Assembly (NCBI GenBank): GCA_023150915.1
Contig: JAKLKA010000004.1
Coordinates: forward strand, 1 to 64,000
Length of the DNA stretch: 64,000 nucleotides
Reading direction: 5' to 3'
From: Polyangiaceae bacterium
Lineage (GTDB): Bacteria > Myxococcota_A > Polyangia > Polyangiales > Polyangiaceae
The notes beneath the pieces are model-generated. The model had not been told where the DNA came from, did no database searches, and saw nothing but the letters and a program-made list of their open reading frames with translations. A program made the translations under genes and the position numbers. This document shows, piece after piece, positions 5,430 to 37,124 of this stretch. Numbering within the stretch: the stretch's first letter is position 1; each line of letters begins with the position of its first letter.

Positions 5430-6395
5430 TCAGCGAACTGCGCGAGATTCCGGGTATTTTGCCGGGGGGTGGTTGAAGCCCCAGCCCAGCTGGAAGGCCG
5501 CGAAGAACGCTGGCGCCGCAGGTCGATCGAGCTCCTGTTCGTCGCCCGGCGTGCATGGGTCGAAGTCGCAGCGCGCGGTGATCTTCCCGCCGAACGCGCG
5601 CCCGATGTCGATCTCGAAACCGAAGCGCGTCCCGTCGTCGGTGACCCACTCGAAAGGCATCGAGAGCGTCAGCATCGAGCCATAGTCGCTCACGTTGGTC
5701 GTGTGGAAGGCCACGCCTGGAGCGAACACGAAGTTGCGACGCACGACCGGCGCGACCCCGACGGCGCCGCCGAAGAGAACCACCGGCCGGTCCGATTCGA
5801 CGCCCACGTAGCCGTTGGGCAGCGTGTCGTCGGCGCCGTACGAACCTTCGTAGGCCATGTCGTCCTGCGGTTCGGTGGTGAAGAGCAGCGCGCGGGCCAC
5901 CACTCGGAAGCGAGCGCCGAGATACGCGCCGCCTTGAACACCGACCGTGAAGAAGTGGTCGTAGCGCTTGTCGGCCGCCACGCCCGCCACCAAGACGTCG
6001 ATGAACGGCGTGGTCAGGGCGGCGGCGTCTTCCGGGTACTCGGGTTTGGGCTTCGGCGGCGGCGGCCCCCAACCGTACCCTGGCGGTGGGTAGTAGTAGC
6101 CCGGCGGCGGATACCCGTAGCCGAACCCCGGGGGTGGATACTGGCCGTATCCGCTGGGCGGCGCGTAGCCGGGCGGCGGGTAACCCGGCGCGGGCTGCCC
6201 CGTCGCGGGTGCGGGTGGGCTGGGAGCGGGCGCGGGTGCGGCGGAGCCCGGCGGCGCCGCGGGTTGGGGTGGAAGTGCGCCCGTGGCGCTGCCGGTGGGG
6301 CTTGGAGGTGTCCCCCCCTGAGCCGCGACCAGCGCCGGACACAGCGCGCACACACCCAGCGATGCCCAAGCTGCCGCCGAAAAGCGCATGCGCAC
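5430..6395 (-). CDS. Secreted Pro/Gly/Tyr-repeat protein with a C-terminal beta-rich domain
   Basis: A 321-residue protein. A signal peptide (LGVCALCPALVAAQ, about 1-26) is followed by a long low-complexity segment (about 27-130) of PPPGY/PPSGY/PPPGF repeats ending in PPPPKPK. A C-terminal domain (about 135-321) has alternating hydrophobic and polar stretches resembling strands of a small outer-membrane barrel (TVGVQGGAYLGARFRVVARALLF; GFEIDIGRAFGG). It ends FFAAFQLGWGFNHPP, compatible with a barrel-type C-terminus but followed by a polar tail. This is a common layout for uncharacterised myxobacterial envelope proteins. No enzyme motif is visible. Confidence 0.7.
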   Translation of the reverse strand: MRMRFSAAAWASLGVCALCPALVAAQGGTPPSPTGSATGALPPQPAAPPGSAAPAPAPSPPAPATGQPAPGYPPPGYAPPSGYGQYPPPGFGYGYPPPGYYYPPPGYGWGPPPPKPKPEYPEDAAALTTPFIDVLVAGVAADKRYDHFFTVGVQGGAYLGARFRVVARALLFTTEPQDDMAYEGSYGADDTLPNGYVGVESDRPVVLFGGAVGVAPVVRRNFVFAPGVAFHTTNVSDYGSMLTLSMPFEWVTDDGTRFGFEIDIGRAFGGKITARCDFDPCTPGDEQELDRPAAPAFFAAFQLGWGFNHPPAKYPESRAVR

Positions 6396-6470
6396 AGAAT
6401 AGGCCGTTTGGGCGTGTCAGGACGAAATGACAGAGATGTGGCTGTAACCTGACGGCCCATTTCCTACCAA

Positions 6471-7373
6471 TTGCGGATGGGAATTGCTGGCAGCGGGTAC
6501 ACGCGCGGGGCGGATGAGCGGGTCAGTTGGGTGAAGTCGGTCCCGTTCTTCTTGATGCACGTGATGCCGCTGGGCATCGTCTGGACCGGCTTCGGCTGGA
6601 AGGAAGCGGTGCTCGCGCTCGCGCTCTACGTGAGCCGCATGTTCTTCATCACCGCCGGCTATCACCGCTACTTCGCGCACCGTGCTTTCAAGACCGGGCG
6701 GGTGATGCAGTTCGTGCTGGCGTTCGGCGGCGGCACCGCAGCGCAGAAGGGGGTCTTGTGGTGGGCGGGTCACCATCGCCACCACCACAAGCACTCGGAC
6801 CTGCCTTCCGACATCCACTCGCCGAAGCGCGGATTCTGGTGGAGCCACATGGGCTGGATCTTGTGCGAGAAGTACGACGCGACTCCGACTCAGCAGATCA
6901 AGGACTTCGCGAGGTACCCCGAGCTGGTGTGGCTCGATCGCTGGCACCTGGTGCCGTCGGTCGCGCTCGGCGCCGCGTGTCTGCTCTTGGGAGGGCCGAG
7001 CGCTTTGTTCGGTGGCTTCTTCCTCTCGACGGCGCTGCTCTACCACGGCACCTTCGTGATCAACTCGGTCACGCACGTCTTCGGGCGCAGGCGCTATGCC
7101 ACCCGGGACACCAGCAAGAACTCACTCTTGCTCGCCCTCGTCACCCTGGGTGAGGGCTGGCACAACAACCATCACTATTACCAGTCGACGGCCAACCAGG
7201 GCTTCTTCTGGTGGGAAATCGACCTCAGCTACTACGCGCTTCGGGTGATGAGCTGGCTCGGGCTCGTGTGGGACTTGCGCACGCCCTCGCAGAAGGTCCG
7301 CATGTCGAACTGGGAGGCGCCCCCGGCCGAGCTGCCTGCTCCGCGCGCGTCCGAGCGACCGGCGCCGGCGTGA
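6471..7373 (+). CDS. Acyl-CoA/fatty-acid delta-9-type desaturase
   Basis: An integral-membrane desaturase of about 300 residues that introduces a cis double bond into acyl chains. All three histidine boxes of the family are present: HRYFAH, HHRHHHKHSD (HxxHH type) and HNNHH. They coordinate the di-iron centre. Hydrophobic segments flank the boxes (about 24-60, 85-95, 158-190). The longest frame starts at TTG 6471, but ATG 6477 gives the same protein less two residues and is equally likely; no strong ribosome site decides it. It is convergent with the PilT-like gene, with 9 bases between stops, and a short GC hairpin (7365-7380) spans the stop codon. It probably tunes membrane fluidity; an electron donor is not in the window. 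Confidence 0.93.
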   Translation: MRMGIAGSGYTRGADERVSWVKSVPFFLMHVMPLGIVWTGFGWKEAVLALALYVSRMFFITAGYHRYFAHRAFKTGRVMQFVLAFGGGTAAQKGVLWWAGHHRHHHKHSDLPSDIHSPKRGFWWSHMGWILCEKYDATPTQQIKDFARYPELVWLDRWHLVPSVALGAACLLLGGPSALFGGFFLSTALLYHGTFVINSVTHVFGRRRYATRDTSKNSLLLALVTLGEGWHNNHHYYQSTANQGFFWWEIDLSYYALRVMSWLGLVWDLRTPSQKVRMSNWEAPPAELPAPRASERPAPA

Positions 7374-7382
7374 GCGCCGGGG

Positions 7383-8873
7383 TCAGTCCAGCTTCACGCC
7401 GGCCTTGCTCAACAGCTCCTTGAACGTCTGCTTGTCGTTCGACTTCATGTAGGCCTCTTTCGGCTCGACCAACCCGTTTTTCACGTGCGAAAGCAGGTGG
7501 TCGTTCATGGTCTGCATGCCCAGCGCCCGACCGGTCTGGAGCAAGCTGGCGATCTGATAGGTCTTGCCTTCGCGGATCAGGTTCGAGACTGCGGGGGTGG
7601 TCACCAGGATCTCGTAGGCCGCCACCCGGCCCCCGCCCTTCTTCTTGCACAGCACCTGGGCGATGACGCCGCGGAGTGACTCGCTGAGCATGGTGCGGAT
7701 CTGTGCCTGCTGCTCCGGCGGAAACTGATCGATGATTCGGTCGATGGTGCTGGTGGCGCTGGTGGTGTGCAGCGTGCCGAACACCAGGTGTCCGGTCTCG
7801 GCCGTCTCGACCGCGATGGCGATGGTCTCGAGGTCGCGCATCTCGCCCACCAGCACGATGTCCGGGTCTTCGCGGAGCGCCGCGCGCAGGGCGGCCTTGA
7901 AAGTCTTGGTGTGAACCCCGACCTCGCGCTGATTCACCAGGCAGCGCTTGTTGGGGTGCACGAACTCGATGGGGTCCTCGATGGTGATGATGTGGTCGGC
8001 GCGGTTCTGGTTGACGTAGTCGATCAGCGTGGCCAAGGTGGTGCTCTTGCCGCTGCCGGTGGGGCCGGTGACCAGCACCAGGCCCTTGGTGAGCCAGCAC
8101 AGGTCGAGCACCTTCGACGGCAGCCCCAGGCGCTCGACTGGAACCAGCTCGAAGGGGATCTGACGAAAGACTGCGCCCGGCCCGTTCGAGTCCATGAAGT
8201 AATTGGCGCGGAACCGCGCCACCCCCGGGATGGGATGCGCGAAGTCGGTGTCCCACGTCTCTTCGAACTGCGTTCGGTTTCGCGCCGGCAATATCTCGAA
8301 GAGCAGCGTGCGCAGTTGGTCGGCCGTGAGCTTGCCGTGCTTCTCGAGCGTGGTCATGGCACCGCTCAGGCGCAGCATGGGCTCGACGCCGGTGGCCAGG
8401 TGCAGGTCGCTGGCGCCCAGACGGACCATTTCTCGCAGAAACACGTTGATGCGGGGCTCGCCCGGCGTGGTGTTGACCGGCGGCGGGACGATCGACCCGC
8501 GCACCTGCGGCACGCGCGGCATCGGTGGCTCGAGCATTGGGGGGCGCGGCGCCGCGGCCAGCGCGGCTTCGTCATCGCGCTTCGGCGACAGGCGGATGCG
8601 CCACTTGTCTTGGCGTTCCGTCTCGACCACCACGTCGACTTGCACGCCCTCGGCGTCGTGGGAAAACGAAACCTTGCCGTACTGCTTCAGGGACTGGATC
8701 TGCTCGGTGCTCATGCACTCTTGCAGCATGGTCACGAGCTGCTTGTGATCGACGCGGTTGGTGGTCAGGCGCTCGCCGGTCTCGAAACAGAAGCGGGCGA
8801 CCTGGTCGCTCTGGAGCTCGAGGGCCTGGGCCCCGTGGCGGAGCAGGTGGCGGACGTAGACGTCGATCTGCAT
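7383..8873 (-). CDS. pilT: PilT-like type IV pilus retraction ATPase with a duplicated N-terminal domain
   Basis: A 496-residue protein; ordinary PilT is about 340-370. Residues about 145-496 are a complete PilT: PAS-like N-domain (GASDLHLATG), Walker A GPTGSGKST (near 270), Asp box EDPIEF, Walker B DPDIVLVGEMRD and His box GHLVFGTLHT. Residues 1-97 look like a diverged second copy of the N-domain: ALELQSDQVARF aligns with SDLHLATGVEPM, and the following helix/DF region (QECMSTEQIQSLKQYGKVSFSH) matches ILPARNRTQFEETWDTDFAH. A Pro-rich linker (about 110-145) joins the two. It probably acts at the inner face of a type IV pilus. It starts 6 bases after the GH31 gene, so the two are likely cotranscribed. 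No other pilus gene is here, so it may be a paralogue rather than the main PilT. Confidence 0.88.
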   Translation of the reverse strand: MQIDVYVRHLLRHGAQALELQSDQVARFCFETGERLTTNRVDHKQLVTMLQECMSTEQIQSLKQYGKVSFSHDAEGVQVDVVVETERQDKWRIRLSPKRDDEAALAAAPRPPMLEPPMPRVPQVRGSIVPPPVNTTPGEPRINVFLREMVRLGASDLHLATGVEPMLRLSGAMTTLEKHGKLTADQLRTLLFEILPARNRTQFEETWDTDFAHPIPGVARFRANYFMDSNGPGAVFRQIPFELVPVERLGLPSKVLDLCWLTKGLVLVTGPTGSGKSTTLATLIDYVNQNRADHIITIEDPIEFVHPNKRCLVNQREVGVHTKTFKAALRAALREDPDIVLVGEMRDLETIAIAVETAETGHLVFGTLHTTSATSTIDRIIDQFPPEQQAQIRTMLSESLRGVIAQVLCKKKGGGRVAAYEILVTTPAVSNLIREGKTYQIASLLQTGRALGMQTMNDHLLSHVKNGLVEPKEAYMKSNDKQTFKELLSKAGVKLD

Positions 8874-8879
8874 GCGGCC

Positions 8880-11378
8880 TCAGTATTTCACTATCACGGT
8901 CCGGGGCCCACTCGGCACCTTGATCAGCAGCACGCCCTGTTCGAACGCCCAGCCCGACGCCGTGGCCTCGAGCGCCGCGAGGCTGCCGGCGTTCGTGAGG
9001 GGCTGCCCGCCCTCGGTCACGGCGCTGGGCGCCTTCGCCACGCCGACCTGTTCGAACACCACACCGTGCTTCAGCTCGCTGCCGTCGGTCTTGGCCAGGG
9101 AAAGGGTCGCGCCCTGGTCTTCTTGCTCGATCTCGGCGCCGTCGAACAGCGTGAACTTGCTGGCCGGGCCCGGGGCGATGCGGACCCAGAGCACGCCGGG
9201 GGTGGTGGCGTAGGAATCGACCGAGGCGTCGGTGGTCGGGCTCAGGGTGTCGATGGTCGGGCGTAGCAACGGCACGATGCCACCCTGCCTCAGGAACAAC
9301 GGCAGCGCATCGAGCGGTGCCGCCACGCTCACCGTCTTCCCACCGGTGAACGCCTTGCCCGTCCACCAGTCGACCCACTCCCCTTCCGGGAGCATCACGT
9401 CGCGAGTGGTCTTTCCGCGCAGAACCACCGGAGCCACCAGCAGGGAATCCCCCAGCAAGAAGGTGTCATCGGGGTGCTCGCCCAGCTCGGGGTGCGCGAG
9501 CCCCAGAGCGCGTTGAATCGGACGCCCGTCGATCTTCAGGCGCTGCGCGTAGGTCCAGATGTACGGAAAGAGCCTGAGGTGCAGCCGGGTGTACGTGCGG
9601 TACCAGCCGAGCATCTCTTGGTCGAAGCCGTTCTCGGCGGTGGGTTCCCAGGCGACGTCGTTGGTGCTGGTGCCGATCTGCATCACCGGCGAAAGCGCCG
9701 TGATCTGGAACCATCGCGTGAACAGCTCTTTGTCGGGGGGCGAGTGCCGGTACCCGCCGGTGTCCGAGCCGAAGAACGGGAAGCCCGAAGGGCCGAGCGA
9801 CAACCCGGCGATCAACGCGGCGGGGAGGCCGCCCACCGCGCCGGCCTTCTTGCCGTCGACGGTGATCTGCTCGCCGTGCTTGGCGAAGCTCGCGTCCAGA
9901 TCCCCGGGCCAGATCACCGAGACGTTCTTCTGGTCGCCGTACGTGCCGGCGCGGCACAGCAAGAACTGGCCTTCGTCTTCCAAAAGCTCGGCATACGCCG
10001 AGTGGTAGAACAGCGGGAAGCGCGCGTGCATCGTGCGCTCGTCGCTTCCGTCGGCAAACCGCCAGACGTTGCGCGCCCCGAAGATCCCCGGCACCACGTC
10101 TTCACCGTAGTCCAGCTTGAAGCCCTCGATCCCCATGTCGACGTACTTCTGGATCCAGCTCTGCCACCAGGCGAACGCCGCCGGGTTGGTCAGGTCGATG
10201 GGCTTGCCCCACTTGTTGAGCAAGATGCCGCTCTGCTCGGGGTAGTAGCCCTTGGCCTTGGCTTCGTCCCGCAGGCTCTGGGTGCTCGGATCTTTCTCGT
10301 CGAGATAGGGCGTGTGCCAGAGCGACACCCGGAAGCCCAGGGCCCGAGCCTTGGCCACCATCCCCTTCGCGTCGGGGAACTTCTTGGCATCGAAGTCGAA
10401 GGTATTCACTCCCGTGGCGTAGGGGCGATCGATCCAGATGGCGCTGGTCGCCAGATCCAGGCTGCGGATGGCCGCGAGATCCGCCTCGACCTGGGCCTGG
10501 TCGTCGTTCTCGTCACGCCACACCAGCGGCCCGAGACCCCAGCGGGCAGGCAGCCGCGGCTGGCCGGTGACGGCATAGTAGTGGCGTGTCACGTCCAGGG
10601 GGTGCGCGGCAGCGAACAGGTGGAACACCAGGCCCTCGCTGCTCGCCAGGCCCGTGCCGAAGGTCGCGACCACGCGATCGGGCTCGGCCTTGGCCACGTC
10701 GAACGCCGCCGGGTATGGGTTTTCGACGAACAACCCGAAGCCGCGCGTGCCGGTCACGAACGGGATCGGCACGTGCGCTTCGTTGTTCGTGCTCTCCAGC
10801 GCGCCGGTGGCCTCGAGCTGCATCGCACGGACCTTGCCGCGGTGGTTCACGCTGTCGAAGTACTCGCCGAGCCCGTAGAACGCCTCGTCGGCGCCGACCT
10901 GCGCAGACAACCCGAGGTACGCCAGCCGCTCGGCGGCGAGGGGGCGCAGCTCTGCACGGATCCGATCGTCGGCGGCGACCGCGAAGACCGCCTCCGACTC
11001 GAAGCCGCCGGTGTGCGCCACCCGCAACGTGACCGATGTCGCCGTGCTCTGCTGGACGAAGAGCCGACTCCCCGGGTGCCACGCGAGCCCCTCGGGCTCG
11101 TTCGCCGCCGGGTCGTGGTTCATCATCGGGGCCGGGTCGTAGTTCGCCGAATCGTCCACCTCGGCCACGCTCCCGAGCACGAAGGCGTCGGCGGGGAGCG
11201 TGAGAATGGCGACGTCGCCGCGCCGAAGCTCGACCGAACCCCGTCCGGTGTCGATGTCGAGGGTGGTCTCACCGGCGATCAGCGTGACCGTCTGCGGCCC
11301 GGGGCCGTCACCCTCTTCGCCATCCGAACAACCCGGGGCCGCGAGCGTGACGAAGGGAAGCAGAAGCCAGGAGCGCAC
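8880..11378 (-). CDS. Glycoside hydrolase family 31 (alpha-glucosidase/alpha-xylosidase type), exported
   Basis: An 832-residue exported glycosidase. The leader (SWLLLPFVTLAAPGCSD) ends in a cysteine that could be lipidated, though the lipobox is not classical. Next come the N-terminal beta domain (YGLGEYFDSVNHRG), then the GH31 barrel with nucleophile Asp in GFKLDYGED (near residue 420) and general acid in IWPGDLDASF (near 491). C-terminal beta domains follow (DDTFLLGDSLLVAPV; LPEGEWVDWWTG). It should cleave alpha-linked glucose or xylose from oligosaccharides outside the cytoplasm; the exact substrate cannot be read. It lies in the minus-strand run below the sigma factor, 24 bases after the AgmX-like gene and 6 before the PilT-like gene. 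Confidence 0.92.
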   Translation of the reverse strand: MRSWLLLPFVTLAAPGCSDGEEGDGPGPQTVTLIAGETTLDIDTGRGSVELRRGDVAILTLPADAFVLGSVAEVDDSANYDPAPMMNHDPAANEPEGLAWHPGSRLFVQQSTATSVTLRVAHTGGFESEAVFAVAADDRIRAELRPLAAERLAYLGLSAQVGADEAFYGLGEYFDSVNHRGKVRAMQLEATGALESTNNEAHVPIPFVTGTRGFGLFVENPYPAAFDVAKAEPDRVVATFGTGLASSEGLVFHLFAAAHPLDVTRHYYAVTGQPRLPARWGLGPLVWRDENDDQAQVEADLAAIRSLDLATSAIWIDRPYATGVNTFDFDAKKFPDAKGMVAKARALGFRVSLWHTPYLDEKDPSTQSLRDEAKAKGYYPEQSGILLNKWGKPIDLTNPAAFAWWQSWIQKYVDMGIEGFKLDYGEDVVPGIFGARNVWRFADGSDERTMHARFPLFYHSAYAELLEDEGQFLLCRAGTYGDQKNVSVIWPGDLDASFAKHGEQITVDGKKAGAVGGLPAALIAGLSLGPSGFPFFGSDTGGYRHSPPDKELFTRWFQITALSPVMQIGTSTNDVAWEPTAENGFDQEMLGWYRTYTRLHLRLFPYIWTYAQRLKIDGRPIQRALGLAHPELGEHPDDTFLLGDSLLVAPVVLRGKTTRDVMLPEGEWVDWWTGKAFTGGKTVSVAAPLDALPLFLRQGGIVPLLRPTIDTLSPTTDASVDSYATTPGVLWVRIAPGPASKFTLFDGAEIEQEDQGATLSLAKTDGSELKHGVVFEQVGVAKAPSAVTEGGQPLTNAGSLAALEATASGWAFEQGVLLIKVPSGPRTVIVKY

Positions 11379-30800: not shown

Positions 30801-31403
30801 ATGCTTCGACGCTTCTTGATCTCGAGTTGGGTGCTGGTGGGGGTCGCGTGTGGCGGCGAGACCATGAACGACGGCAACCCGCCCGGTGGCGGCGGGACCG
30901 TGGCGGCAGGCGGCAGCGCGACCAGCGGTGGCACGGGCGGCAGCGCCGGCAGCGCGCCGGGCGGCGCGGGGGGCGCCAGCGGCGCGGGGGGCGGGGAATG
31001 CGTGCAGAAGGGCGACGGCTGGCCCACGGGGACCGAGGCGACCTGCTCCGACCTGTCCGTCCTCGCGGTGGACAGCCCGGTGATCAGCGACGCCGGCGGT
31101 GATGGCGTGGTCTCACCCGGCGAAGCCTTCGACTTGCAGGTGGTGTTGCGCGAAGTGGCTGGCATCGGCTTCGGCTGGTACCCGGGGGTGAAGTTCGACT
31201 CGAGTCACGCCGGAGTGACCCTCAGCGAAACCGACTGGTTCTACGGCATCTTCGGCTGCCAGAGCTACGACGTGGGCGCCCAAGGCAAGGTGGACGCGAG
31301 CGTGAAGCCCGGCACCGTGGTCATGCTGACCGCCCGCGCCGCCATGCTGAACACCGAGTGCCCGGCGGCACCGGCCCTGCAGGTGACGCTCACGGTGAAG
31401 TGA
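30801..31403 (+). CDS. Gly-rich-linker lipoprotein with a C-terminal beta domain
   Basis: A 200-residue protein with ribosome site GAGGAGA before ATG 30801. Lipobox VGVAC; linker (about 25-70) of Gly/Ala/Ser repeats; then a beta-sandwich-like domain (about 75-200) with DAGGDGVVSPGEAFDLQVVLREV and VMLTARAAMLNTECPAAPALQVTLTV. The pattern of a Gly-rich tether and one small adhesive-looking domain repeats at 35136-37124 and 45737-47032. Function unknown. It converges on the QEGLA-motif gene and overlaps its end by 14 bases. Confidence 0.7.
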   Translation: MLRRFLISSWVLVGVACGGETMNDGNPPGGGGTVAAGGSATSGGTGGSAGSAPGGAGGASGAGGGECVQKGDGWPTGTEATCSDLSVLAVDSPVISDAGGDGVVSPGEAFDLQVVLREVAGIGFGWYPGVKFDSSHAGVTLSETDWFYGIFGCQSYDVGAQGKVDASVKPGTVVMLTARAAMLNTECPAAPALQVTLTVK

Positions 31404-32712
31404 GCCCACGACGGGGGGCGCCGACCACCATTCGTCCCCAGAACGTGCTCACCCCGAGCCAGATCGCGATGCCGTTCAGGTCGCGGAACATCGGTGGCAG
31501 GTACTTGGGTGCCGTCACCACGCCCTCGTGGGCGCGCTCGGCCAAGATCGGGATGTCGTCCAGGTGCACCTTGCCCGCGAACAGCCACGGGATCAGGGCC
31601 GGCTTCGCCGAGGCGATGGTCTTCCGCAGAAAGTCGAAGTTCTCGACGATGCCCTTCGTGTAGACGATGTCCTTGGTGAAGGGCGCACCGCCGCCGAGCA
31701 CGCCGCCGCGGAACACGCGCTGCGTGTTCCAGAAGCACGTCTCCTCGTCGTAGCCCTCGGTGCGGAACCACTCGAACACGTCGAGGAAGCTCGCGCCGTC
31801 TTCGGCCTTGTCCACCGCGATCACCCGATCGTTCAGGCGGCGTGCGCGCGACGGATGGCTCGAGAGGGTCAGCACCTCGAGCAACGCGGCGAGCCCCTCT
31901 TGCGTCGCCGCGGTGCGCGGCGGGCCCTTCGCCAGCCAGCGTGCCACCGGCTGGCGCTGGCCGTTGAGGCTGGTGGCCACGTGGGCCCAGCCCTCGTGCA
32001 CCTCGAGCACCTGGATGTCCCGCTCGCTGAAGAACGCAGCGCGCCGCAGCTTGATGTAGTCGCTGCCGGCAGAGGCGTCCGCCACGATGCCGTCATCGAG
32101 CCGGACCCGCACCGTACCGTCGCCGAAGTAGGCGCTCAGCCGCGCGTTCAGGCGCTCGACCGCGTCCGCCGCCGGGATGTCGCGCACTGGCCGCGGACCG
32201 AGATCGGCCTCGTCCAGGTGGGTGAGCAGTTCGTACATTTCCCGCGCGACCTCGGCCACGCTGCGACCGTCGTCGGTGACGATGTCCTTGGCCGAGCCGT
32301 ACAGCCGGCGACTCAGCTCCGAGAAGCGCGGCGTGCCCCGCTTCACCAGCATCTCCACCACCTCGGCGTATTCGCGGGCCGAGTCGGCCACGATTCGGCC
32401 CACCTCGTCGCCAACGCCCAGCTCGCGACCGACGTCGCGTTCGAGCTCTCGCAGCTCGTCGAGCTTGGCCTGGGGATCGAAGCCCAGCGGAACCTTCTCG
32501 TAGTCTTCGACCCCGACCTGGGGCAGCTCGCGGTACCCGCCGTGTCGGAAACGCGTCAGCACCTCGGCGGGCCACTTCACCGAGTTGAGCACGCGGATCG
32601 GCTTCTGTGCGTCCACCAGGCGCTGCGCCAGCTCGGCCAGCTTCTCTTTGTACGAGCGCCACGGGCGCGCTTGCTCGGCGGGGCGCGGCGCGGAGCGTTC
32701 AGCCTCGGACAT
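31390..32712 (-). CDS. QEGLA-motif (TIGR02421/DUF1704) metallohydrolase-like protein
   Basis: A 440-residue protein. The family signatures are clear: LGFDPQAKLDELRELERDV, ARGTPxFSELSRRLYGS (here KRGTPRFSELSRRLYGS), VHEGWAHVATSLNG and the name-giving TQEGLAALLE. The HEGWAH and QEGLAALLE pair resembles the metal site of a zinc peptidase. Members were named for modulating flavohemoglobin expression and often lie beside glutathione-like synthesis genes, which are absent here. ATG 32712 opens the conserved part; the frame runs further upstream only as shadow of the divergent gene. Confidence 0.85.
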   Translation of the reverse strand: MSEAERSAPRPAEQARPWRSYKEKLAELAQRLVDAQKPIRVLNSVKWPAEVLTRFRHGGYRELPQVGVEDYEKVPLGFDPQAKLDELRELERDVGRELGVGDEVGRIVADSAREYAEVVEMLVKRGTPRFSELSRRLYGSAKDIVTDDGRSVAEVAREMYELLTHLDEADLGPRPVRDIPAADAVERLNARLSAYFGDGTVRVRLDDGIVADASAGSDYIKLRRAAFFSERDIQVLEVHEGWAHVATSLNGQRQPVARWLAKGPPRTAATQEGLAALLEVLTLSSHPSRARRLNDRVIAVDKAEDGASFLDVFEWFRTEGYDEETCFWNTQRVFRGGVLGGGAPFTKDIVYTKGIVENFDFLRKTIASAKPALIPWLFAGKVHLDDIPILAERAHEGVVTAPKYLPPMFRDLNGIAIWLGVSTFWGRMVVGAPRRGLTSP

Positions 32713-32785
32713 CGCGAAGATTGTGCGGGCGAGGCCGGCGGCGGCGCAAGCCCCGAGCCCGTTGCGCCCGCGACCGAGTGCCCGC

Positions 32786-33778
32786 ATGCTCGGCGCCGCC
32801 ATGGCCGATTGGAACGCCGTCCGCTTCGATCCAAACCAGTGCGTCGACCACGTCGAGAGCCTGTACCTCAAGCTGAACGAGCCGGGCGGGAAGCGCGCAC
32901 TCTGGGTCAAGACCACCATCCTTGCCGGCGCGGGCCGCACGCCCGTGGCCGAGGCCTGGGCCATTGCCTTCGATCGCGACGCCGGGCACGTCGCGGCCAA
33001 GCAGGTCGTGCCCTTCGCCGACGCCAGCTTCTCGCGCACCGGCCTGGACGTGAAGGTCGCCGGGGTTTCGCTCACGGCCGGCCGCACCCGCGGCCAGCTC
33101 GAGTCGGGCGGCGCGCGCATCGAGTGGGACCTCGAGTTCGACACGCGTGGCGACCCGCTCGTGCCCTACCCGTACCCCAAGATGTACGAAGGCGGGTTCC
33201 CCAGTCAGAAGACCGTCACCCGGTTTCCGGACACTCGGTTCTCGGGAAGCTATCGCGTGGGCGGTCGCGAGGTTCGGGTGGACGGCTGGAAGGGCATGCA
33301 GAGCCACAACTGGGGCAAGCGCCACACCGAGCTCTACGCCTGGGCGCACGTGAATCAGTGGGACAACGCCGACGACCTGATGCTCGAGGGCTTCACGGGG
33401 CGTCTCAAGCTGGGCCCGCTCCTGGCGCCGCCGCTGACCGTGCTCTGCGTCTGGCACGCCGGGCGGCGTTACGCGTTCAACGACGTGCGCACACTGCTCC
33501 GGAACAAGGGTGTGATCACCCTGCGGTCATGGCGGTTCGAGGCGGAAAGCCCCCAGGCCCGCGTGCGCGGCGAGCTGGCGGCCGACACCGACGAGATGGT
33601 CGGCCTGCACTACGAAAACCCGAATGGCGAGATGACGTACTGCCTGAACTCGAAGATCGCCTGGGCGCTGCTCGAGCTCGAGCCCAAAGACGGGCCGCGG
33701 GTCCACGCCTCGAGCAACGCGGCTGCGCTCGAGATCGGGACCAAAGACCCGAAGCACGGCGTGCGGATGATGGCCTGA
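32786..33778 (+). CDS. Lipocalin-like AttH/CrtC-type protein (tentative)
   Basis: A protein of about 330 residues (start ATG 32786, or ATG 32801 giving MADWNAVRF). It has no signal peptide. Long beta-rich stretches and GYRVGGREVRVDGWKG-like strands with SHNWGKRHTELYAW recall the paired lipocalin-like domains of AttH, tocopherol cyclase and CrtC carotenoid hydratase, where a conserved W-G-R/K motif lines the pocket. No carotenoid gene is close. I hold this as a fold-level guess. It diverges from the QEGLA gene. Confidence 0.55.
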   Translation: MLGAAMADWNAVRFDPNQCVDHVESLYLKLNEPGGKRALWVKTTILAGAGRTPVAEAWAIAFDRDAGHVAAKQVVPFADASFSRTGLDVKVAGVSLTAGRTRGQLESGGARIEWDLEFDTRGDPLVPYPYPKMYEGGFPSQKTVTRFPDTRFSGSYRVGGREVRVDGWKGMQSHNWGKRHTELYAWAHVNQWDNADDLMLEGFTGRLKLGPLLAPPLTVLCVWHAGRRYAFNDVRTLLRNKGVITLRSWRFEAESPQARVRGELAADTDEMVGLHYENPNGEMTYCLNSKIAWALLELEPKDGPRVHASSNAAALEIGTKDPKHGVRMMA

Positions 33779-35135: not shown

Positions 35136-37124
35136 TCAGCTGCCGCAGACGCTGGTCTTGTTCGTGCAGCAGTCGCCGTAGGTGGCGCAGGTCGCATCGC
35201 AGTAGCAGGCCTTGCCGGTGCCGACGTCCTTGCTGCTGGTCGAGGTGCCGCACAGCGCGGCGGTGCAGCCCGGGAACGCCGACCCTCCGCCGGTGCCACC
35301 CGCGGCCGATCCGCCGGTCCCGCTCGCGCCGCCGGTGCCGCCCGCCCCGCCCGCGCCGCCGTCCACGGTCCCGCCGCAGGCCGTCTGGAGATCCGCGCAG
35401 CAGTCGCCATACTTCGCGCAGTTCGCGTCGCACCAGCACCCGCCCGCGGCCTTCTTGCCGCAGTTGCCCAGGCAGCTCTGGGGGCCGCCCGCCGCGCCGC
35501 TGTCGGTGGTCGTTCCACCGTCCGTGGCAGCCCCGCCGCTGCCCCCGGCGCCGCTCGTCCCTCCGGCGCCGCCGGTGCCCGGGTTCACCGCGGGCTTCGC
35601 GCAGGTCGACTTGTCGTTGGCGCACTTCGCCAGCATCTTGACCTTCGAGTACGACACGAACGGGTTGTCGTCGTCGCCGCCCAGATCGTCGGGGCTCTCG
35701 CCGTATCCGTCGTTGCGGACCGCCATCCAGAAGAAGTCGGGGTGGAGCTTCTTGTTGTCCTCGCCCCAGGTGGTGGAAGGCGACTGGATCCACTCGCCGC
35801 CCAGGATGGTGCCTCCGTCGTTCAGCTCGAGCACGTAGTTGAGCTCGGTCTCGTGGGGCGACGTGCCGCGCAGGTAAGCGTTCTTCAGCATCTCGCCGTC
35901 ACCCACGCCGTCCGACACCATCCAGTACTTGAGCTTGACGCGGACGAACTTGGTGGCCTCCGCATTCCACACGTACTCGCGGGCCGCCGATGCCACCAGC
36001 TTGGCAGCGTCCTCTTTGCTGACCTCTTGCTGCTCCAGCACCTGGTATTTGACCAGGGGGAAGTTCCACACTTCCCAGTCCCAGTTGTGGTCGATGACGA
36101 ACGGCGGCTTGCCCGGCCGGTTGTCGTTCAAGTAAGTCGCCCCGCGCGACAAGAGGCCGGTGACCCCGATGTGGAACGAGCCGGGGTTCAGATCGCGGCA
36201 CTCGCTCTGCTTCGGCCGGCCGTGCTCGTCGCGCTCGATCTTGTCCGGGTCCACGTTGCAGCGCCGGCCCGCGAAGGTGGCTTTGTCGCTGAAATACAGC
36301 TCGGTGAACAGCGCCTCGATGTCACCCATGCGGAACAGCGTGCAATCGGCCTCGCCGGCGTCGCACTCGTAGATCTTTCCGCTCGGGTCCAGCTTGACGC
36401 GGATGTCGCGAGCCGGCGCCGGCTCGGTCTCGAGCGTGGCGTACGACGACCAGCCGTTGCAGTGGCCCCACCACGAGTCGGGGTGGGCGAAGGTCTGGTA
36501 CAGGCCGTGGTTCTCGAGCTCCCACTTGGTCGCGGGCCCCGCGACCGTGACCGCCTCGTGCTTGTGTTTGGTGCCGCGCTCGGCCTCGGGCTTGGCGAGC
36601 TCGCGCGCCTCCCAGTGCTCCACGGCGGCAACCTGCTTCTGCTGCCCAGGGTGGAACAGCACGTCGTACTTCTCGACGGGCGCAAGGTTCTCGGTGTCTG
36701 CCAGCTTGCTTCGGTCTTGCTCACCACCGGTCCATCGCTTCGCGATGCCGTCGTTCGACTGCGCCCACCAGCTCGACGGGAAGACTTTGAAGTCCGTCTC
36801 GCCCTGGGTCAGGCTGGGGTCGTACTTCTGATACTCGGCCTCACCCAGCTTGGGGTGCAGGCGGCTCGGCCGGTTGGCGTCGTCGATCTTGTCCGCCTTG
36901 TCGCGGTCGACCGGAACGATCACCTCGTGGGCACCGCCGGTGAGGCTGCGGGTCGACGCCGGGTCCGACGCGAGCACGTAGCGGTAGACGCCGGCCGATT
37001 GCGGCAACGTGCCCGAGCCGGGCTCGCCCGGTTCGCTCGCCGAGCCGCCGGCCGCAGAGCACGCGACCGCACCCAGGACGATCAGGGACCACGAAGATTG
37101 GCGGACCAGGCTGCGAAGCTTCAT
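35136..37124 (-). CDS. Secreted transglutaminase-elicitor-like protein with two somatomedin-B-like domains
   Basis: A 662-residue lipoprotein (lipobox VLGAVAC). Residues about 60-510 resemble the transglutaminase elicitor family: catalytic-type Cys in WWGHCNGWSSYA and His in VIDHNWDWEVWNFPL. Two Cys modules follow in Gly/Ala/Ser linkers. Module 1 has spacing C-x3-C-x7-C-x-C-x3-C-x5-CC-x6-C, and module 2 the same core after C-x4-C-x14. That eight-Cys pattern with CxCDxxCxxxxDCC is the somatomedin-B signature, mostly known from animals. The protein may crosslink or cleave Gln/Lys sites outside the cell while binding a partner through these modules. A perfect inverted repeat covers its start codon. 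Confidence 0.82.
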   Translation of the reverse strand: MKLRSLVRQSSWSLIVLGAVACSAAGGSASEPGEPGSGTLPQSAGVYRYVLASDPASTRSLTGGAHEVIVPVDRDKADKIDDANRPSRLHPKLGEAEYQKYDPSLTQGETDFKVFPSSWWAQSNDGIAKRWTGGEQDRSKLADTENLAPVEKYDVLFHPGQQKQVAAVEHWEARELAKPEAERGTKHKHEAVTVAGPATKWELENHGLYQTFAHPDSWWGHCNGWSSYATLETEPAPARDIRVKLDPSGKIYECDAGEADCTLFRMGDIEALFTELYFSDKATFAGRRCNVDPDKIERDEHGRPKQSECRDLNPGSFHIGVTGLLSRGATYLNDNRPGKPPFVIDHNWDWEVWNFPLVKYQVLEQQEVSKEDAAKLVASAAREYVWNAEATKFVRVKLKYWMVSDGVGDGEMLKNAYLRGTSPHETELNYVLELNDGGTILGGEWIQSPSTTWGEDNKKLHPDFFWMAVRNDGYGESPDDLGGDDDNPFVSYSKVKMLAKCANDKSTCAKPAVNPGTGGAGGTSGAGGSGGAATDGGTTTDSGAAGGPQSCLGNCGKKAAGGCWCDANCAKYGDCCADLQTACGGTVDGGAGGAGGTGGASGTGGSAAGGTGGGSAFPGCTAALCGTSTSSKDVGTGKACYCDATCATYGDCCTNKTSVCGS

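Follow-up and report, generated by a model that had tools for sequence, protein, structure and literature searches.

The closest described relative of the enzyme reported here is GP42 of Phytophthora sojae, a transglutaminase of the TGase_elicitor family (PF16683) with a papain-like fold, in which the His has been relocated to the residue directly following the Cys, forming a CH motif (PMC10318531). The family also occurs in Vibrio, according to the title of the paper on the GP42 structure that the same article cites (PMC10318531). The closest described relatives of its C-terminal modules are the Somatomedin_B (SMB) domains of animal proteins (vitronectin, ENPP1-3 and an EndoU-type endoribonuclease), and SMB is regarded as an animal matrix module. 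In the literature searched, we found no paper joining somatomedin B with myxobacteria or Myxococcota, or dealing with bacterial SMB domains; at the level of titles and abstracts, work on the somatomedin B domain and bacteria concerns vitronectin recruitment, venom or medicine only. Both domain families are known; the bacterial SMB-transglutaminase architecture and the enzyme branch to which it belongs are apparently undescribed.

We identified a gene that joins the two families in the window, the whole stretch of 64,000 nucleotides of Polyangiaceae DNA that was analysed (Table 1). The gene is real and its product is a probable secreted lipoprotein; the ORF starts with ATG, codes for 662 aa and has a host-like GC3 (0.92). 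The reading that we prefer, at a probability of roughly one half, is that the product is secreted, probably anchored in the outer membrane as a lipoprotein, and would act through Cys222 as a transamidase or deamidase of extracellular Gln, with the two SMB domains as a docking tail.

Table 1. Features of the SMB-transglutaminase gene, in window coordinates.
Feature	Position	Strand	Basis
Whole gene: TGase_elicitor + 2 x Somatomedin_B, 662 aa	35136..37124	-	ORF list, Pfam, GC3 0.92
Putative signal peptide, lipobox-like end ...LIVLGAVA, then C22, S	37059..37124	-	Read by eye
Transglutaminase-elicitor (GP42-type, papain-like) catalytic domain, residues 78-506	35607..36893	-	Pfam, AF2, 3tw5 match
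Active-site signature W218-W-G-H221-C222-N223-G-W225	36450..36473	-	Invariant in 30-sequence alignment; aligned to GP42
Asp345, invariant, candidate catalytic residue, core-strand end (342-345 in model)	36090..36092	-	Role inferred
Gly/Thr/Ser-rich linker 1, residues 507-549	35478..35606	-	Sequence; same-genus indels; pLDDT mostly <50
Somatomedin_B 1 (SMB1), C551-C583, eight Cys	35376..35474	-	Pfam, Cys spacing, AF2, Foldseek
Gly-rich linker 2, residues 584-619	35268..35375	-	Sequence; orthologue indels
Somatomedin_B 2 (SMB2), C620-C660, eight Cys, longer C2-C3 loop	35145..35267	-	Pfam, Cys spacing

The N-terminus resembles a lipoprotein signal (MKLRSLVRQSSWSLIVLGAVAC-S), as judged by eye and from orthologues, whose leaders end in LLLAGAC, LAAVGC and LLALGC. 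A crude hydrophobicity script for the lipobox placed the protein below its cut-off and passed the orthologue L101. More broadly, a crude lipobox test is passed by 30 of 56 SMB proteins versus 6 of the 47 window genes (Fisher p 1.3e-5). The outer membrane is the expected location because the residue at lipoprotein position +2 is not Asp. Eight-Cys modules require oxidising, extracytoplasmic surroundings.

Membership in an operon was considered and rejected, as the neighbours (an M20 peptidase, a MATCAP-like protein and an ORF without Pfam matches) have no common theme. Gene order around the gene is conserved solely within the genus, and we saw no clue to substrate or pathway among the genomic neighbours. 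A scan for promoters and terminators at the gene returned nothing informative, and an NCBIfam search with the protein gave no match. The MATCAP-like protein (31393-33144, minus strand) matches PF08014 with E=3.5e-124; this family is named for eukaryotic microtubule tyrosine carboxypeptidases.

An earlier, sequence-only reading of this DNA had proposed a transglutaminase-elicitor domain, and both profile and structure bear this out. PF16683 matches residues 108-468 with E=1.1e-33 and 116.9 bits (cut-off 25), and comparison with GP42 gives E=1.9e-19 pairwise and 6.4e-97 by profile. The AF2 model of the core (pLDDT mostly >85) matches GP42 (3tw5_A) with a Z of 28.0 over 307/344 residues (rmsd 2.6), and Foldseek finds the same structure at E 2.1e-16. 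GP42 is the sole strong match of the core model among solved proteins; the next structural neighbours are IdeS/Mac-1 cysteine proteases (Z 6.0-6.3). The position of the Cys is shared with GP42, as are D345, W353 and the HPD block at 461-463. Unlike GP42, the protein has insertions around the motif, a lipoprotein-like leader and the SMB tail. In same-genus comparisons the dN/dS of the catalytic core is 0.09-0.13. A Vibrio owensii plasmid (NZ_CP025798.1:70966-71658) also carries a distant homologue of the catalytic domain; the gene is annotated as encoding a ricin-type beta-trefoil lectin domain protein, which speaks for the docking reading.

The same reading had Cys and His in place at the active site, which holds for the Cys and fails for a GP42-like Cys-His pair. 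C222 aligns with the GP42 site, where the letters of the crystal construct are WFGISHAW (Ser at the Cys position). The His that follows the Cys in the CH motif is replaced by Asn223 in all members of the type found here, and His221 precedes the Cys, so that GHC222NGW in this protein and its close relatives (HCN type) stands against GxCH[GA]W in GP42-type proteins (CH type). No substitution of H221, C222, N223 or D345 occurs in 30 aligned sequences, a set that took in Planctomycetota and Bdellovibrio-group proteins at 24-27% identity; His318 is conserved in close relatives only. Among the relatives found by profile, the PF16683 matches comprise 11 CH and 8 HCN proteins, with no intermediates. 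We used this set for the count because a motif-seeded contig search, with patterns containing WWGHCNG and NGIAxRW, is biased toward HCN. We class the protein as a PF16683 homologue and not as one with a GP42-type active site. Transglutaminase activity is not transferable from GP42, because the His after the Cys is Asn here. A working enzyme is nevertheless expected, since H221-C222-N223 and D345 persist even at 24-27% identity, and the enzyme is probably active with a rearranged site. The widespread HCN signature marks a large, apparently uncharacterised branch of GP42 enzymes.

The signature could also mark a separate activity, in which case the GP42 fold of the protein would house a different papain-fold enzyme, either a cysteine protease or a pure glutamine deamidase. 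We consider this somewhat unlikely. The two signatures are strict and non-overlapping, the papain fold hosts many enzyme activities (PMC10318531), and a protease is possible, as IdeS/Mac-1 proteases follow GP42 in the structural comparison. However, Pfam and structure place the core firmly with GP42 (the Z of 28.0 compares with about 6 for the next family), and the other GP42 core positions (W353, D345, HPD 461-463) are kept.

Two SMB modules with animal-type Cys spacing, tethered by Gly-rich linkers, had likewise been proposed, and all of these elements were recovered at the C-terminus. Somatomedin_B (PF01033) matches the protein in two stretches (E=2.2e-10, 41.1 bits), and in the genome search the single copies score 31.9 and 26.2 bits (the latter SMB2), both above the family cut-off of 23.1. 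The Cys spacing is 3-7-1-3-5-0-6 in SMB1 and 4-14-1-3-5-0-6 in SMB2; the core C-x-C-x3-C-x5-CC-x6-C is exact in both copies, which vary solely in the first two loops, C1-C2 and C2-C3. In same-genus orthologues the SMBs keep all 16 Cys and have no indels, unlike the linkers, where indels occur; this excludes a chance Cys-rich tail. Values of dN/dS for the SMBs, drawn from 35-43 codons, are noisy.

In the full-length AF2 model the SMB tail is mostly at pLDDT <50, with few tailed rows in the alignment, and SMB1 was therefore modelled alone on 18 aligned SMBs (pLDDT 89). The top Foldseek matches of this model are the SMBs of ENPP1, vitronectin, ENPP3 and autotaxin (probability up to 1.00, TM 0.73). 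In a second structure search, all 50 matches listed were SMB-bearing entries (best VIA Z 4.5 over 36 residues). Profile matches are to ENPP1/2/3, vitronectin and the EndoU-type endoribonuclease. The bacterial modules thus resemble animal SMBs in the frame of eight Cys, the CxCDxxC motif and the fold, and differ from them in a conserved Gly-Asp before the CC pair. The ligand residues of the vitronectin SMB are only partly present (the Asp after C4 and one Tyr are kept), which weighs against the docking reading; the equivalents of Leu24 and Tyr27 are not kept in SMB1.

The tail varies on a common enzyme. Four tails were identified by Pfam on one catalytic core among the named orthologues: two SMBs (L100-L106, L087 in genome G001 and L226 in genome G096), one PPC with one SMB (L107), two PPC (L108-L113) and none (Sorangium and Polyangium). 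PPC (PF04151) is a different Pfam family that takes the same C-terminal position as the SMB tail, replacing or accompanying SMB in other lineages. Because the two-PPC proteins are nested within a group (support 100/98) that includes the two-SMB protein L105, the two kinds of tail look interchangeable, and one was probably swapped for the other. The tandem SMB tail is conserved across several genera, and the linkers of two-SMB orthologues vary from Gly-rich to Pro-rich or short as the SMB Cys are kept. The four genomes of L102-L105 (G382-G385) have no SMBs apart from the enzyme's own two, so the pairing persists even where no other protein uses SMB. At the L107 locus (5788-10073, plus strand) the enzyme is duplicated in tandem, each copy having PPC and one SMB, and these are the only SMBs of that genome.

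The modules had been taken for an unusual case of an animal-like domain in a bacterium, and this does not hold for the phylum. At least one SMB was found in 73 of 282 sampled Myxococcota genomes, several of which have at least 25, and in 28/108 genomes of the host's family. The count was 0/199 in the phylum sample of a Planctomycetota genome and 0/144 in that of a Bacteriovoracaceae genome, and SMB was found in none of 14 control genomes. A profile search of the host genome, a draft assembly of 295 contigs, identified 14 SMB domains, a number that may be low because the repeated linkers probably break assembly. Three host contigs (C175, C146 and C15) start within coding sequence for Gly-rich linker or SMB. 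The 116 distinct bacterial copies share one Cys frame, with the consensus CxCDxxCxx[YF]GDCC.

SMB is also fused to other enzymes. We identified fusions with protein-arginine deiminase (PAD) in four genomes (the host, on contig C175, and G001, G022 and G282), with one or two N-terminal SMBs and Gly-rich linkers. The loci are host C175:3-1895 (L018:3-1895), L179, L189 and L192, and the PAD match has E=7.7e-86. Among solved structures, those of animal PADs are the closest (E down to 3.7e-47 against human PADs). As in the SMB-transglutaminase, a side-chain-modifying enzyme of an animal-like family is joined to SMB via a Gly-rich linker, but the catalytic family is different and the SMB is N-terminal. 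Two SMBs are also present on a GP42-type (CH) transglutaminase of genome G282 (L194:4153-5868, minus strand); on its motif, this is a separate joining from the HCN type. A further partner is a PPDK_N-bearing protein, and partners elsewhere include LTD, Dicty_CTDC, laminin-G, collagen, TSP_3 and FG-GAP proteins. The host has a second TGase_elicitor gene on contig C14 (L029:3700-5424, minus strand), with the CH motif and a PPC-like domain inside the catalytic region.

The exchange with PPC, the CH transglutaminase fusion and the PAD fusions all suggest that the tail is used by enzymes that modify proteins outside the cell. The presence of SMB on PADs and on members of another transglutaminase subfamily indirectly favours a surface protein-modifying role for the SMB-transglutaminase. 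The tail could instead be a disulfide-stapled stabiliser, or an export or processing tail, as PPC domains often are, and not a binding module. In secreted proteases, PPC domains, with which SMB exchanges, commonly sit at the C-terminus and are cleaved off during maturation. Most SMB proteins of the host's family carry SMB at the C-terminus, and the Sorangium and Polyangium orthologues lack a tail. Such a role is nonetheless improbable: SMB also occurs N-terminal of PAD, and mid-protein in large multi-domain proteins that bear laminin-G, TSP_3, collagen or FG-GAP repeats, positions that better fit adhesion than processing. A chance Cys-rich tail or contamination, suggested by the small size of the domain (40 residues) and the draft assembly, can practically be dismissed, given two copies above the Pfam cut-off, a match to the SMB fold, the shared Cys frame of the bacterial copies, host-like GC3 and same-genus synteny.

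In the docking reading that we prefer, the enzyme would be secreted and then probably anchored in the outer membrane as a lipoprotein. Cys222, the candidate nucleophile of the papain-fold domain, would attack Gln side chains of extracellular proteins, and the outcome may be crosslinking, amine attachment or deamidation. The two C-terminal SMBs on their flexible linkers would dock the enzyme to a protein or polysaccharide, whether on the cell surface, within the matrix, on other cells or on prey. The involvement in predation that had been suggested is a guess.

More generally, SMB is an expanded and freely shuffled module in a bacterial phylum, repeatedly fused to members of protein-crosslinking and protein-deiminating enzyme families. 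Should the tails anchor such enzymes on matrix or prey, these bacteria would offer a tractable system for the building or attack of extracellular protein networks. It is possible, but unlikely, that SMB is a shared surface-docking tag in part of the Myxococcota, taking secreted side-chain-modifying enzymes (the two transglutaminase subfamilies and PAD) and adhesive multi-domain proteins to one extracellular partner. This would be a bacterial counterpart to animal matrix assembly.

Genomes of a distant Myxococcota family (f24; e.g., G103, G125, G139 and G297) have at least 25 SMBs each, many of them in large Cys-rich multi-domain proteins. SMB partners outside the host's family repeatedly include Dictyostelium CTDC repeats and lamin-tail domains. 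Host contig C14 also encodes a lipoprotein-like protein (L029:15000-16313, minus strand) with repeated Cys-rich units that score to Dickkopf_N and conotoxin models, and a terminal SMB.
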